Assembly (NCBI GenBank): GCA_947626845.1
Contig: CANQTW010000007.1
Span: 1-64,000 of the forward strand
Direction: 5' to 3'
From: an uncultured Oscillospiraceae bacterium
GTDB taxonomy: Bacteria; Bacillota; Clostridia; Oscillospirales; Oscillospiraceae
Length of the DNA stretch: 64,000 bases
The translations under genes and the position numbers were made by a program. The notes under the pieces were generated by a model that searched no databases, was not told where the DNA came from, and worked only from the letters and a program-made list of their open reading frames with translations. Positions 49,784-58,023 of the stretch are shown here, piece by piece. Every line of letters starts with the position of its first letter. The first letter of the stretch is position 1.

Positions 49784-51184
49784 TCACACAAGCTCCCCGA
49801 AGAGCGCCCAGGTGTTGGAGCCGGTGATCCTGACGGTTTGGAACGTGCCGGTGAGGGAGGCGTCCGCCCGCAGGCGCACCAGCCTGCCGCCGGAGGTGCG
49901 GGAGGTGAGATAGTCCCCCTCCTGTCCGTCCACCAGCACCCGAAGGGCGCGGCCCACATAGGCCCGGTGCTTCTCCTCGGAGATCCGGTTCTGAAGGGCC
50001 ACCAGGGCGTCGAACCGGCGCTGTTTTTCCTCCCTGGTGAAGGGGTCGGGCATCCTTGCCGCCGGGGTGCCAGTCCGGGGGGAGAAGATGAAGGTGAAGA
50101 GGGCGTCGAAGCGCACCTCCTCCACGAGGCGCAGGGTGTCCTCAAATTCCTCCTCCGTCTCGCCGGGGAAGCCCACGATCACGTCGGAGGTGAGCACCAC
50201 GTCGGGCATATAGGCGCGGGCCATACGGATGAGGTCGAGATACGCCTCCCGCGTATACCGCCGGTTCATGGCGGAGAGCACCCGGTTCGATCCCGACTGG
50301 AAGGGCAGATGGATATGGCGGGCGCATTTTTCGCAGTTCGCCATGGTGGAAAAGAGCTTTTCACCGGCGTCCTTGGGGTGGCTGGTCATGAAGCGGATGA
50401 GGAAATCGCCGGGGATATCGTTGATACGGGCGATCAGGTCGGAGAAATCCACCCCCTCCGGCAGGTCCTTGCCGTAGGAGTTGACGTTCTGTCCCAGGAG
50501 GGTGATGTCCTTGTACCCCGCCGCCGCCAGGGCGCGGGCCTCCTCCAGCACGTCCTCCGGACGCCTTGACCGCTCCCGTCCCCGTACATAGGGGACGATG
50601 CAGTAGGAGCAGAAGTTGTCGCACCCGTACATGACGGGCAGCCACGCCTTCACGGCGCTGTCCCGCGACGAGGGCAGTCCCTCGGCCACACAGCCGTCGG
50701 AAGGGGCGGTCTCAAAGATGCGCCCTTCCCCCTGGAGCTGGCGCAGAAGAAATTCCGGAAAGCGCCACAGCTCATGGGGGCCGAACACCACACGGACGTG
50801 ACGGTAGGAATTTTTGATCCTGTCCGCCATCCCCGGCTCCTGCATCATACAGCCGCACAGGCAGATGATCTGGCTGGGCCGGGCCTTTTTGGTGTGGGTC
50901 AGGGCGCCCACGTTGCCCAGGACCCGCTGTTCGGCGTGCTCCCGCACGGCGCAGGTATTGATGACGATGACGTCGGCGGCGTATTCGTCCCGCGTCTCCC
51001 CGTAGCCCATGGCCTTCAGCATCCCGCGGAGCTTCTCGCTGTCGGCCTCGTTCTGCTGGCAGCCGTAGGTGTCCACCAGCGCCAGGGGAGGCGGCTCCAG
51101 GCCGGCGTTCAGCTCCGCCACCCGCTCCATGATGTCCCGCTGGCGGGCCAGCTCCTGGGCGGTGATCTCAATTCTCTGCTTCAT
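49784..51184 (-). CDS. miaB: tRNA methylthiotransferase MiaB
   Basis: A 466-residue radical-SAM enzyme that adds the methylthio group at A37 of tRNAs after MiaA. The N-terminal UPF0004 domain has VDTYGCQQNEADSEKLRGML and NTCAVREHAEQRV and CGCM, with three cysteines for one 4Fe-4S cluster. The radical-SAM motif is YGCDNFCSYCIVPYVRGRE (CxxxCxxC). A C-terminal TRAM domain follows (VGRALRVLVDGQEGD). The partner miaA is 3.4 kb away on the other strand. GGAGAA precedes the ATG on the minus strand. Confidence 0.97.
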   Translation of the reverse strand: MKQRIEITAQELARQRDIMERVAELNAGLEPPPLALVDTYGCQQNEADSEKLRGMLKAMGYGETRDEYAADVIVINTCAVREHAEQRVLGNVGALTHTKKARPSQIICLCGCMMQEPGMADRIKNSYRHVRVVFGPHELWRFPEFLLRQLQGEGRIFETAPSDGCVAEGLPSSRDSAVKAWLPVMYGCDNFCSYCIVPYVRGRERSRRPEDVLEEARALAAAGYKDITLLGQNVNSYGKDLPEGVDFSDLIARINDIPGDFLIRFMTSHPKDAGEKLFSTMANCEKCARHIHLPFQSGSNRVLSAMNRRYTREAYLDLIRMARAYMPDVVLTSDVIVGFPGETEEEFEDTLRLVEEVRFDALFTFIFSPRTGTPAARMPDPFTREEKQRRFDALVALQNRISEEKHRAYVGRALRVLVDGQEGDYLTSRTSGGRLVRLRADASLTGTFQTVRITGSNTWALFGELV

Positions 51185-51333
51185 ACGGCAATTTCTCCGG
51201 TATCATTTTATTTGTAATGGTATTTTAACAAAAATAAGTGGAATTTACAAGAACTATCGTGTATAATATCGTGTAGAATAATCAGTAAATTGATCCCTTG
51301 CGCGTTTACCTGATTGACGGGGAGGTTGAACAT

Positions 51334-52389
51334 ATGAAAAATCTTGTCATCGACAAGGCGGCCATCAAATCGAACCTGGACGCGGTGAAGGCCAGGGCCA
51401 GGGGCGTACAGATCTGGGCCGATCTCACCGGCGACGCCTTTGGCCTGGGCCTTGTGGCCACGGCGAAGCTTCTCCGGCAGGAGGGTATCCGCTCCTTTGC
51501 CGTCTCCGATCCCAGGGACGCCAGGGCCCTGCGGGACGCGGGCTTCACCGAGGAGACGCTGATGATGCTCCGCTCCACCGCCGACGAGCAGGAGCTGAGG
51601 GAGCTGATCGACCTGAACGTGGTCTGTACCGTCGGCTCCTATGAGGCCGCCGTGGCCCTGAACGGCATTGCCGAGGAGCACAAGACGGTGGTGGAGGTGC
51701 AGATCAAGATCGACACCGGCCTTGGCCGGTACGGATTCATCGTCTCGGAGACGGACAAGATCGCCAACATCTACCGCTTCATGTCCAATTTGGCGGTGGT
51801 GGGCGTCTTTTCCTCCTATGCCCAGTCCTGGAAGAGCCGCAAGGCCACACTCCAGCAGCTGGAGGCCCTGAAGCAGGTGCTGGAGGTCCTTCATAAGCAG
51901 GGATTTGAGACGGGGATGGCCCACATCTGCGACTCCGCGGCCCTGTTCGCCTATGATTTCGACCTGCTGGACGCGGTGCGGGTGGGTACCGCCTTCTCCG
52001 GGCGCGTGGCCGGAAAGGCCGCCCCCGGCCTGACCAAGGTGGGCTACATAGAGGCCGGCATCGAGGAGGTGGGCTGGTTCCCCAAGGGCCACCGGGTAGG
52101 CGGCCTGGCGCTGAAAAAACCGGCGCGGCTGGCGGTGGTGTCCGTGGGCTATTACCACGGCTTCGGCATGACCCGCCACGAGCAGGGCCAGAGCGTGTGG
52201 GATATGCTGAGGGCCTGGCGGCGGCGCCCCACGGTGAAGCTGGGGAACGCCAAGCTGAGGATCGTAGGCGAGGTGGGCATGACGCACACCATCCTGGACG
52301 TCACCGACGTCAAATGCCGGGTGGGGGACACCGTGACCATGGACGTGGACCCGGTGAACGTGAAGGGCCTGACGAGAATATATAGATAA
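51334..52389 (+). CDS. Alanine-racemase-like protein lacking the catalytic residues
   Basis: A 351-residue alanine-racemase-fold protein. Fold anchors are kept: NLVIDKAAIKSNLDAVKARA, QIKIDTGLGRYGF (structural Lys/Arg), DSAALF, AVRVGTAFSG, and SVGYYHGFG. The PLP lysine is absent: the usual VVKADAYGHG reads WADLTGDAFGLG, with Thr32 (51427-51429) in the Lys position. The second catalytic base, the Tyr of VSYG, is also missing (RVGG). It is therefore likely a non-racemase relative, such as a PLP- or amino-acid-sensing protein. GGGGAGG precedes the ATG at 51334. It is a single gene before an R1 copy and mutL. Confidence 0.85.
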   Translation: MKNLVIDKAAIKSNLDAVKARARGVQIWADLTGDAFGLGLVATAKLLRQEGIRSFAVSDPRDARALRDAGFTEETLMMLRSTADEQELRELIDLNVVCTVGSYEAAVALNGIAEEHKTVVEVQIKIDTGLGRYGFIVSETDKIANIYRFMSNLAVVGVFSSYAQSWKSRKATLQQLEALKQVLEVLHKQGFETGMAHICDSAALFAYDFDLLDAVRVGTAFSGRVAGKAAPGLTKVGYIEAGIEEVGWFPKGHRVGGLALKKPARLAVVSVGYYHGFGMTRHEQGQSVWDMLRAWRRRPTVKLGNAKLRIVGEVGMTHTILDVTDVKCRVGDTVTMDVDPVNVKGLTRIYR

Positions 52390-52392
52390 GAT

Positions 52393-52585
52393 AGCGGAAA
52401 AAGCCTGTTAAGGCTTTTTCCGACAAGGGGAACGTGCGGGCAATTTTCTCTGAATTTTGCGAAATTCAGAGAAAATCACCCTGCTGTCGCTCTGCATGCA
52501 CGCGGAGCGCACACTTGTGCGACAAAAGGGATTTTTTCCGACGCACATGTCGCCGGAAAAAATATTGAATTTGAGTTTTTGACAG
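52393..52585. repeat. Repeat R1, copy D (full length)
   Basis: H1 (GCGGAAAAAGCC, GGCTTTTTCCG), H2 (AATTTTCTCTGAATTTTGCG and its right arm AAATTCAGAGAAAATC) and H3 (ATTTTTTCCGACGCACATGT, CGCCGGAAAAAAT), ending TTGAGTTTTTGACAGC. It matches copy A across its whole length, with small differences, and lies between the Alr-like gene and mutL. Confidence 0.85.
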
Positions 52586-52600
52586 CAGAGAGGAAAGACT

Positions 52601-54562
52601 ATGCCAAAGATACATGAAATGCCGCCCCATCTGGCGGACCTCATCGCCGCCGGGGAGGTGGTGGAGAGGCCGGCCAGCGTGGTCAAGGAGCTGGTGGAGA
52701 ACGCCATAGACGCCGGTGCCGGCGCCGTCACCGTGGAGATACGCTCCGGCGGTATGGCGGAGATCCGCGTCACCGACGACGGCTGCGGCATCGCGGAGGA
52801 GGATGTGGAGACGGCCTTTTTGCGCCACGCCACCTCCAAGCTGCGGACGGAGCGGGACCTGGAGGCCATCGGCACCCTGGGGTTCCGGGGGGAGGCGCTG
52901 GCGGCCATCGCCAGCGTGTCGCGGGTGGAGCTGATTACCTGTGAGCGGGGCGCCGCCGAGGGCACCAGGCTTGTGCTGGAGGGCGGCGTCAAGACCGCCA
53001 AGGGTCCGGCGGGCCACCCGGCGGGGACCACCATCTGCGTTCGGGACCTTTTTTTCAACACCCCGGCGCGGCAGAAATTCATGAAGAACGACAGGGCCGA
53101 GGGCGCCGCCGTCACCACCGCCGTGGTGCGTCTGGCGCTGAGCCATCCGGAGATCTCCCTCCGCTACATCCGGGAGGGCCGGGAGGAGTACCACACCCCC
53201 GGCGACGGGCGGCTCCAGTCCGCCGCCTACTGCACCCTGGGCCGGGAGTTTGCCAGGGGGCTGCTGCCCGTATCCGGCAAGACGGAGGGCATGGAGGTCA
53301 GCGGCTATACGTCCACCCCCGCCGCGGCCAGGGGCAACCGGTCCTGGCAGTTTTTCTTCATCAACGGGCGGTTCGTCAAATCAAAGCTTTTACAGGCGGC
53401 GGTGGAGCAGGCCTATAAAAACGCCCTGTTTACCGGGCGGTTCCCGGTGTGCCTTATCGAGCTGACCATGCCCCTGAACGCCGTGGACGTGAACGTCCAC
53501 CCCACCAAGATGGAGGTGCGCTTTGCCGACGAGCGGGCGGCCTTTGACGCGGTCTACTGGGCTGTCCGGGGCGCTCTGGAGCGGGAGGACAAGCCGGGGG
53601 AGCTGGAGCTGTCCAAGAGCACCGAGGCGGCGCTGCGCTCTCCCGTGGAGGTTCGGGATATCCCCGGCCATCAGGTCTTTGCCCCCGGCGGAGGGAGGAG
53701 ACAGCCCCTCTCCGGCGGCTTTGTGGTAGGCAGGGCCAATGTGAAGTCCGGCGACGAGTTTTATAAGCGGGTCACCGCCGACACCTTCCGCACCGAATAC
53801 GGCGCGCCGGCGGCCTTCAAAACCGCCATCCGGCCCGCCCAGATCGGGCCTCAGACGTCCATGAAAAGGGGCGAGGCGGAGCTGGAGGACGCGGTCACGC
53901 TCCGGGACGCCGTCAGCGAGGCCCAGACCTTCATCCCCCTCCCGGACCCGGAGCCTGTTCAGGAGGCCAATCCCGGCCCGGCGTCCGTTCCCGCGGGGCG
54001 GGACTGGCGGTATGTGGGGGAGGCCCTGGGCACCTATGTGATCGTGGAGCGGGGCGACAGCCTTTTCCTCATCGACAAGCACGCCGCCCATGAGCGGATA
54101 CTGTTTGACAGGCTGAAAAGCCAAAAGCACCAGGCCGCGGGCCAGATGCTCATGACCCCCCTGGTGTGCGACCTGGGGGGCGAGACCGCCGGGACGCTGA
54201 CGGAGAACGAGGCCCTTCTCAATGAGCTGGGCTTTGAGTTCTCCGACTTCGGCGGCGGCAGTGTGGCCCTCCGGCAGGTGCCTATCGACATGGACCTGTC
54301 CGACCCCGCCGGGATGCTGGAGGAGATCGCGGAGAAGCTGAAAACCGGCGGCAGGCGGGACGTGGAGGCCATGCGGGACGACGTGCTCCATACCGTGGCC
54401 TGCAAGGCGGCCATCAAGGCCGGGAAGCGGACGGACCCCAGGGAGCTTACGGGCCTTATCGACGCGGTGCTCTCCGGCGCGGTGCGCTACTGTCCCCACG
54501 GCAGGCCCGTCAGCGTGGAGCTGACGAAAGCGCAGCTGGACAGGAGCTTCAAGCGGGCATGA
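52601..54562 (+). CDS. mutL: DNA mismatch repair protein MutL
   Basis: A 653-residue MutL. The GHKL ATPase part has LADLIAAGEVVERPASVVKE, VENAIDAGAG, TDDGCGIAEEDV and TLGFRGEALAAIASVS. The C-terminal endonuclease part keeps the metal motifs in order: DKHAAHERILFDRL (the DQHA box with Lys), ACKAAIKAGK, and CPHGRPVSVEL, so it should nick DNA itself, as expected without MutH. AGAGGAAAG lies before the ATG. Its stop overlaps miaA by 4 bases. Confidence 0.97.
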   Translation: MPKIHEMPPHLADLIAAGEVVERPASVVKELVENAIDAGAGAVTVEIRSGGMAEIRVTDDGCGIAEEDVETAFLRHATSKLRTERDLEAIGTLGFRGEALAAIASVSRVELITCERGAAEGTRLVLEGGVKTAKGPAGHPAGTTICVRDLFFNTPARQKFMKNDRAEGAAVTTAVVRLALSHPEISLRYIREGREEYHTPGDGRLQSAAYCTLGREFARGLLPVSGKTEGMEVSGYTSTPAAARGNRSWQFFFINGRFVKSKLLQAAVEQAYKNALFTGRFPVCLIELTMPLNAVDVNVHPTKMEVRFADERAAFDAVYWAVRGALEREDKPGELELSKSTEAALRSPVEVRDIPGHQVFAPGGGRRQPLSGGFVVGRANVKSGDEFYKRVTADTFRTEYGAPAAFKTAIRPAQIGPQTSMKRGEAELEDAVTLRDAVSEAQTFIPLPDPEPVQEANPGPASVPAGRDWRYVGEALGTYVIVERGDSLFLIDKHAAHERILFDRLKSQKHQAAGQMLMTPLVCDLGGETAGTLTENEALLNELGFEFSDFGGGSVALRQVPIDMDLSDPAGMLEEIAEKLKTGGRRDVEAMRDDVLHTVACKAAIKAGKRTDPRELTGLIDAVLSGAVRYCPHGRPVSVELTKAQLDRSFKRA

Positions 54563-57318: not shown

Positions 57319-58023
57319 GTGGACAGGAGCCTTATGGAGATACGGGACAGCGCCGCGCGGGTCCTGGAGCGGGTAAACGCCGCCGCGCAAAAGGCGGGTC
57401 ACGGGGCCGTGCTGGTGGCGGCCTCCAAGATGAACGGCCCTGAGTGCGTGCGGGCCGCCTATGACGGCGGCGTCCGCCATTTTGGCGAGAACCGGGTCCA
57501 GGAGCTGGAGAGCAAGCTGGCCGCGGACGCCTACGCCGGCGCGACGGCGCATTTTATAGGGCATCTTCAGAAAAATAAGGTGAAGGCTGTGGCGGGCCGG
57601 ACGGCCCTGATCCAGTCGGCGGACTCATCGGCGCTTCTCCGGCTCATAGGAAAGCGGGCCGAAGAGCTGGGAATTACGCAGGACGTGCTTTTAGAGGTGA
57701 ATATTGGCCGGGAGGCGTCAAAGTCCGGCGTACTGCCGGAGGCGCTGGACGGGCTGGCCGCCGAAGCCGCGGAAATCCCTGGGATTTTCGTCCGCGGGCT
57801 GATGGCGATCCCCCCGGCGGGGGAGGAAAAGGAAAAAACTGTCCAATATTTTGAACAAATGCGAAAGCTTTTTATTGACATCGGCGCGAAAAAATACGAT
57901 AATGTCAGTATGCGTATTCTGTCCATGGGGATGAGCGCCGATTTTGAGGAGGCCATCGCCTGCGGAGCCAATATGGTGCGTGTGGGTACGGCCATCTTCG
58001 GACAGCGGTACGTTAAGGGGTAA
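57319..58023 (+). CDS. YggS/YlmE-type PLP homeostasis protein
   Basis: A 234-residue PLP-binding protein. AVLVAASKMNGPECVRAAYD carries the PLP lysine, and HFGENRVQELESKL and HFIGHLQKNKVKAV are family signatures, as is LSMGMSADFEEAIACGANMV near the C-terminus. The family buffers pyridoxal phosphate. It starts GTG at 57319 directly after the HlyD-like gene and belongs to the ylmE-sepF-divIVA division cluster found in Firmicutes. Confidence 0.93.
   Translation: MDRSLMEIRDSAARVLERVNAAAQKAGHGAVLVAASKMNGPECVRAAYDGGVRHFGENRVQELESKLAADAYAGATAHFIGHLQKNKVKAVAGRTALIQSADSSALLRLIGKRAEELGITQDVLLEVNIGREASKSGVLPEALDGLAAEAAEIPGIFVRGLMAIPPAGEEKEKTVQYFEQMRKLFIDIGAKKYDNVSMRILSMGMSADFEEAIACGANMVRVGTAIFGQRYVKG

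Follow-up and report, generated by a model that had tools for sequence, protein, structure and literature searches.

Can a protein that keeps the fold of an alanine racemase and has lost the lysine that binds pyridoxal 5'-phosphate (PLP) still be of use to its cell, and in what capacity? The question is raised by a gene that we call alrX, located at positions 51334-52389, plus strand, of a 64,000-nucleotide stretch of DNA (the window; contig CANQTW010000007.1 of assembly GCA_947626845.1, positions 1 to 64,000) from an uncultured Oscillospiraceae bacterium. Based on its open reading frame (ORF), profile matches and predicted structure, alrX encodes an alanine-racemase-fold protein of 351 amino acids, AlrX, that lacks the PLP lysine. 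We conclude that AlrX is very probably not a racemase and is under selection. It looks like a pseudoenzyme, because its clade has lost the catalytic residues throughout and retains the fold, the reading frame, a promoter block and a pocket that has been rebuilt. What it does is harder to name; we tentatively propose, as a plausible reading, that it serves cell-wall amino-acid supply by binding a ligand or by regulation.

The Pfam profiles Ala_racemase_N and Ala_racemase_C matched AlrX with 146.9 bits (cut-off 24.1) and 31 bits (cut-off 25), and the predicted structure has the fold of alanine racemase (Alr), an N-terminal barrel with a C-terminal beta domain. The NCBIfam model TIGR00492 gave 142.9 bits, under its curated cut-off of 168; two relatives discussed below, the lysine-bearing sister L048 and the sequence L050, scored 188.2 and 141.2 bits. 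The motifs recognized in AlrX are WADLTGDAFGLG, which carries Thr32, KIDTG, DSAAL, VRVG, HRVGG and GYYHG, and a ribosome-binding site GGGGAGG (51319-51325, plus strand) was read in the sequence 8 nucleotides 5' of the ATG. A preliminary description of this DNA had called the ribosome site strong and the 351-codon frame intact, had put Thr32 in the place of the PLP lysine and the lost tyrosine of the VSYG motif within RVGG, and had listed KIDTG, DSAAL, VRVG and GYYHG as surviving structural anchors. All of this held up, K39 of Alr aligning with T32 and Y265 with G257.

Residues were mapped by aligning AlrX to the canonical Alr of its own genome (G000:C35, L073); for H166 and the pocket sites V37, L85, C311, M312 and D313 we use what we take to be the Alr numbering. 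The accessible part of PMC3485190 assigns catalysis in Alr to two residues, Lys39 and Tyr265', and the orientation of PLP to Arg136 and Arg219. The portion available of PMC3245724 adds that Tyr43, Ser204, Ile222 and Tyr354 hold the PLP phosphate and that the link between Arg219 and Tyr265' runs through a histidine, numbered His168 there. In AlrX, Thr32 (51427-51429), Ser161 (51814-51816) and Gly257 (52102-52104) stand at the places of K39, H166 and Y265, these codons and the following ones lying on the plus strand. Arg132 (51727-51729) corresponds to R136, Asp200 and Ser201 (51931-51936) to N203 and S204, and Arg216 (51979-51981) to R219; Asp30 (51421-51423) occupies the place of V37 and F36 that of Y43. 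The lost histidine and the two new acidic residues, D30 and D200, had been overlooked in the preliminary description. Across the AlrX family, and in its lysine-bearing sisters as well, the C-terminal segment bearing Y354 is missing; the CMD motif has for the most part given way to other residues, again in the sisters too.

To place AlrX among its relatives we kept the best 80 of 566 contig matches, so that the counts describe sampled loci and are no census. Every match kept came from a record of Oscillospiraceae or of another Clostridia-type bacterium, and Flavonifractor, Pseudoflavonifractor, Lawsonibacter, Colidextribacter and Intestinimonas are represented. The pooled sample of 150 loci gave 137 distinct sequences after removal of 13 near-duplicates. 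Their K39 column holds 54 Thr, 23 Ser, 57 Lys, 1 Asp and 1 Glu, one sequence being cut off, and since 79 of the 137 carry something other than lysine there, the loss is not due to chance or sequencing error. All 77 Thr/Ser sequences have another residue in place of H166 (Q in 34, T in 28, S in 12, R in 3), and 76 of them, all except L035, have also lost the tyrosine Y265. The alignment of orthologues to racemases that the preliminary description had recommended thus extends its two substitutions to a whole set of proteins. We sorted the Thr/Ser sequences by their residue at the H166 place into the window's group (S or T, 40 sequences), the Flavonifractor branch (Q, 34) and a small third group (R, 3), so that uniformity at this site within a group is a matter of definition. 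A tree of 106 rows, built with the catalytic columns left out, bears out this sorting (S/T in 29/29 rows of the window's group, Q in 20/20 of the Flavonifractor branch). The Thr/Ser rows form one region of it, composed of the Flavonifractor branch (20 rows, support 100/99) and the window's group with the third group (32 rows, 99/97); the window's group itself comprises 29 rows with support 100/100, and position 32 is Thr or Ser in all 52 rows of the clade. The sequence L069, cut by a contig end, was dropped from the tree; in the gene-context count it was wrongly placed in the Asp/Glu row.

The 57 lysine-bearing sequences consist of six canonical Alr, L050 and 50 sisters. K39, H166 and Y265 are all kept in 48 of the 50 sisters, L063 and L064 having Gln for the histidine. 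L050 (L050:7758-8828, minus strand) looks intermediate, with K39 kept, H166Q, Y265G and no FemAB-family neighbour. Because this K39-bearing sequence joins the Thr/Ser branches at support 82/69, a single loss of K39 and one loss per branch are both compatible with the tree. Labelling the tree by residue requires two changes, the second in two Alr-like proteins of the order with Asp (L065:6633-7664, minus strand) or Glu (L070:3691-4719, minus strand) for the PLP lysine. These are probably a second, separate loss, and the Glu form keeps the histidine; L050, L065 and L070 sit on long branches, so their placement is unsure. Sisters and Thr forms occur under one genus label, Intestinimonas butyriciproducens An565 (L112) having a sister and the Intestinimonas-labelled L090 and L093 the Thr form.

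Could AlrX be a racemase after all, working through another lysine or residue? The retention of the overall fold and of R132, S201 and R216 speaks for it, but all three catalytic residues are lost and no suitable replacement lysine was found. Only K19, K142 and K251 reach at least 85% in both large Thr/Ser groups, and by predicted secondary structure two of these lie in helices and one follows strand 238-249 in the C-terminal domain. The preliminary description had allowed for a conserved lysine elsewhere in the barrel; none of these candidates appears to take over, and a still-active racemase is very improbable. A relic under drift is harder still to credit, although AlrX was not found in 6 of 33 genomes of the genus. 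The ratio of nonsynonymous to synonymous substitution rates (dN/dS) of alrX against the window copy was 0.035-0.25 in 21 loci (L005-L025), below that of mutL in 20/20 of these loci where mutL was measured and in 25/27 over all pairs; miaB gave values similar to alrX and at times lower. The window copy is common to all pairs, and for the more divergent of them dS is close to saturation. No in-match stop codon occurred in 30 loci (L004-L033), and the promoter block is conserved. The earlier statement that this is not a decaying pseudogene is thus well founded.

The pocket itself bears on the remaining explanations. In the window's group 4/11 pocket sites vs 2/51 others carried a fixed replacement (p = 0.007), and in the Flavonifractor branch 4/11 vs 1/51 (p = 0.003), counting those sites whose conservation in the sisters is 85% or higher. 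Pocket conservation was slightly above background in the two (p = 0.061 and 0.056, respectively) and far stronger in the sisters (p under 0.0001). Given these replacement and conservation tests, the pocket can be called neither an intact site for PLP nor one that has plainly eroded, and each branch has its own fixed version. The window's group has Asp at the V37 and N203 places and Arg at that of R136, each in 40/40; the Flavonifractor branch has Phe for R136 in 33/34, Gly for N203 in 33, Gln at the K129 place in 31 and Val at V37 in 32. S204 is kept in 77/77 Thr/Ser sequences, R219 in 72/77 and G221 in 67/77, Y43 drifts (Tyr in 10/77), and R219 is Cys in 3/3 of the third group. Cys98 (window 51625-51627) is found in 75/77 Thr/Ser sequences vs 5/50 sisters, of which 30 have Ala. 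A re-tooled enzyme, in which Thr/Ser32, Asp30, Asp200 and perhaps Cys98 carry out PLP-independent chemistry, would explain why pocket residues were re-fixed rather than left to drift, why position 32 is Thr or Ser clade-wide and why Cys98 is so common, but D30/R132/D200 in one branch and V/F/G with Gln at H166 in the other are unlike one shared active site, and we consider this unlikely. More doubtful is a protein of vitamin B6 binding or homeostasis, holding PLP or pyridoxamine phosphate (PMP), as the preliminary description suggested when it spoke of PLP sensing. The retention of S204, R219 and G221 agrees with it; the loss of K39 and H166, the drift of Y43, the missing Y354 segment (absent from the sisters too), the entry of D30 into the window group's pocket and the substitutions of R136 in the Flavonifractor branch and of R219 in the third group weaken it. 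A separate YggS-like gene, of what we assume to be a B6 homeostasis family, also lies at 57319-58023. About equally doubtful is an inactive subunit that pairs with the canonical Alr. Alr active sites form at the dimer interface (accessible part of PMC3485190), and since each takes its Lys from one subunit and its Tyr from the other, AlrX could spoil or tune Alr; at least one further Alr-like match was present in 27/27 AlrX-bearing genomes of the genus, and within this fold class there is the precedent of inactive ornithine decarboxylase homologues (PMC6738921, as far as accessible). Against it, AlrX and the canonical Alr of its genome are distantly homologous (53.5 bits), and the latter is encoded elsewhere (C35).

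The neighbours of the relatives point toward the cell wall. A FemAB-family gene (PF02388 in L048) lies directly upstream in 46/49 sister loci with enough sequence, and near the 50 sister loci were genes for Orn/Lys/Arg decarboxylase-like proteins (12), a cyclic-di-AMP receptor (24), DNA polymerase III delta' (30) and PSP1 (28). In the sister operon of L048 (L048:6286-7677, minus strand) a short Orn/Lys/Arg decarboxylase-like PLP protein is encoded between the Alr homologue and the cyclic-di-AMP receptor, a family without a match in the window's own genome. FemAB was adjacent to Thr/Ser alrX in 0/73 loci. No FemAB adjoins L050, L065 or L070 either; their downstream genes are retained, apart from the decarboxylase at L070, and L065 and L070 still precede the cyclic-di-AMP receptor, HolB and PSP1 genes.

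The Flavonifractor branch has another type of neighbour. An ATP-grasp-like ligase gene follows alrX directly on the same strand in 17/30 of its loci (gap of -73 to +205 bp, between stop-to-stop frames), and in 14 of these 17 the genes that come next encode an Asp/Glu racemase (PF01177) and a ligase of MurE type; of the other three, L110 has MurE without the racemase, and the sequences of L106 and L117 stop before the place is reached. The cluster at L105:7122-11276 (plus strand) exemplifies this order of ligase, racemase and MurE in Flavonifractor/Lawsonibacter-type genomes. The ligase had no Pfam match, nothing useful in PDB and weak carbamoyl-phosphate-synthase-like matches in NCBIfam. A 35%-identical Latilactobacillus gene is annotated as a carboxylate-amine ligase and stands beside an annotated amino acid racemase; a Limosilactobacillus match has no racemase alongside. 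By analogy with the Latilactobacillus gene and with aslA and racD of L. lactis, which share one operon (PMC4155827, in its accessible part), the ligase may be called D-aspartate-ligase-like. Ligase matches occurred in 10/99 genomes, of which only G052, G054 and G059 have a Thr/Ser AlrX, adjacent only in G059. As a general partner of AlrX the ligase was rejected for the window's genus, where it occurs in 0/33 genomes; it also occurs without Thr/Ser AlrX.

On the reading that we prefer, AlrX would descend from a PLP-dependent amino-acid racemase, the activity presumably kept by the lysine-bearing sisters, whose genes adjoin one for a peptidoglycan cross-bridge transferase of the FemAB family. 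The catalytic machinery of K39, H166 and Y265 would have been lost with or after the break from the FemAB neighbour, and purifying selection would have held the protein since then, the full fold being kept and the pocket re-fixed differently in two branches. We infer that a small ligand is bound in this pocket and is not racemised there; in the window's group it might be an amino acid or a related compound, held by R132 and R216 against D30, D200 and T32. AlrX itself may serve the supply of cell-wall amino acids in a binding, regulatory or scaffolding capacity. A more speculative version, possible at best, makes it a sensor or binding protein, with the Alr fold and two fixed pockets in two branches, that couples cross-bridge amino-acid supply to something else in the cell, the supply side being FemAB in the ancestor and, in Flavonifractor-type bacteria, the D-Asp-ligase-like enzyme together with Asp/Glu racemase and MurE.

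Several observations weigh against this picture. The different residues fixed in the two branches argue against one common ligand, and without K39 and H166, which define the groups, the pocket enrichment has p = 0.10 in the window's group and 0.056 in the Flavonifractor branch. Function in the window's genus has to be inferred from kin, because neither a cross-bridge-supply neighbour nor the ligase is present there; the ligase is likewise absent from the window's own genome, whose two FemAB-family proteins are located elsewhere (C30, C5). At the search sensitivity used, no FemAB match was found in the AlrX-bearing G009, G014 and G031 (99% complete), and a dependence of AlrX on FemAB was accordingly rejected for this genus. 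The sisters L055, L057 and L058 keep their catalytic residues without FemAB alongside, so loss of this neighbour was not sufficient. An orthologue (at least 56% identity) was present in 27/33 genomes of the genus and not found in G013 (72% complete), G020 (86%), G023 (81%), G025 (95%), G026 (98%) and G028 (84%), two of them above 90%. In G026 and G028 miaB and mutL stand back to back about 127 bp apart without alrX, and G025 shows neither mutL nor alrX in the 888 bp available before miaB. Since six genomes lack it and miaB and mutL directly adjoin in two, AlrX is dispensable. The dN/dS of alrX also exceeded that of mutL in L027 (0.18 vs 0.16) and L032 (0.425 vs 0.422).

In the window, alrX lies between the divergent miaB (49784-51184, minus strand) and mutL (52601-54562, plus strand), both ORFs named from reading the sequence, without a family search. 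Between miaB and alrX is a conserved block (51221-51267) ending in TATAAT (51262-51267), which, read by eye, could be the -10 element of alrX; the promoter scan did not list it and its -35 would be weak. This TATAAT was found in 29/30 upstream stretches. With L032 and L033 left out, it shows no variation across 28 loci, of which 27, the window's among them, belong to the genus and one, L030, to a different genus. The scan gave three matches in the region vs 0.5 in shuffles, among them a sigma-70-like match towards miaB (TTGTAA-17-TAAAAT, 51222-51250, minus strand) and other plus-strand ones. The block may represent overlapping promoters or an operator; an expression of alrX confined to sporulation found no support. 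Downstream, a 12-bp hairpin at 52395-52422 (-19.8 kcal/mol, z -4.4, 0/200 shuffles as good), listed by the scan on the minus strand only, is likely a terminator, and a second hairpin 5' of mutL (52531-52563) is weak (z -1.6, 13/200 shuffles as good). In the window's group alrX is divergent from miaB in 37/39 loci and precedes mutL in 38/38, and mutL follows in 3/3 loci of the third group. The Flavonifractor branch has alrX beside miaB in 13/32 loci and before mutL in 0/31, on which ground a joint role with mutL was rejected. The preliminary description had proposed a new task after the loss of the lysine, for example a structural role near mutL. The new task gains from the clade-wide catalytic loss without a lysine taking over; the role near mutL finds no support, also because the stable hairpin separates the genes.

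Genes of the alrX type are probably labelled alanine racemase in gut genomes, yet by known chemistry their products are no racemases. With lysine-bearing sisters, a catalytic loss whose place in a tree can be given and two pockets rebuilt in different ways, they offer a clean test case for the change of a PLP enzyme into a pseudoenzyme, and their relatives direct attention to the supply of cell-wall cross-bridges in common gut bacteria. Among the open PMC papers listed in our literature searches, none was on a bacterial alanine racemase without its lysine. Compared with alanine racemase itself (EC 5.1.1.1, TIGR00492), AlrX shares the two-domain fold (PF01168 and PF00842) and the equivalents of R136, S204 and R219, but lacks the PLP lysine, the catalytic tyrosine, H166 and the C-terminal Y354 segment, and falls under the TIGR00492 cut-off. 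With YggS (COG0325), presumably a single PF01168 domain with a PLP lysine, it has PF01168 in common and differs in its C-terminal beta domain and missing lysine. By tree and sequence it stands nearest to the Alr homologues of its order that are linked to FemAB, such as L048; these have likewise lost the Y354 segment and, for the most part, the CMD motif, and unlike AlrX they keep their catalytic residues and the upstream FemAB gene. What is already known, from the accessible part of PMC6738921, are the antizyme inhibitors of animals, which are homologous to a PLP enzyme of this fold class and inactive. Like AlrX they have been kept for another task; unlike it they derive from ornithine decarboxylase and act through antizyme, and so represent a precedent rather than a tested relative.
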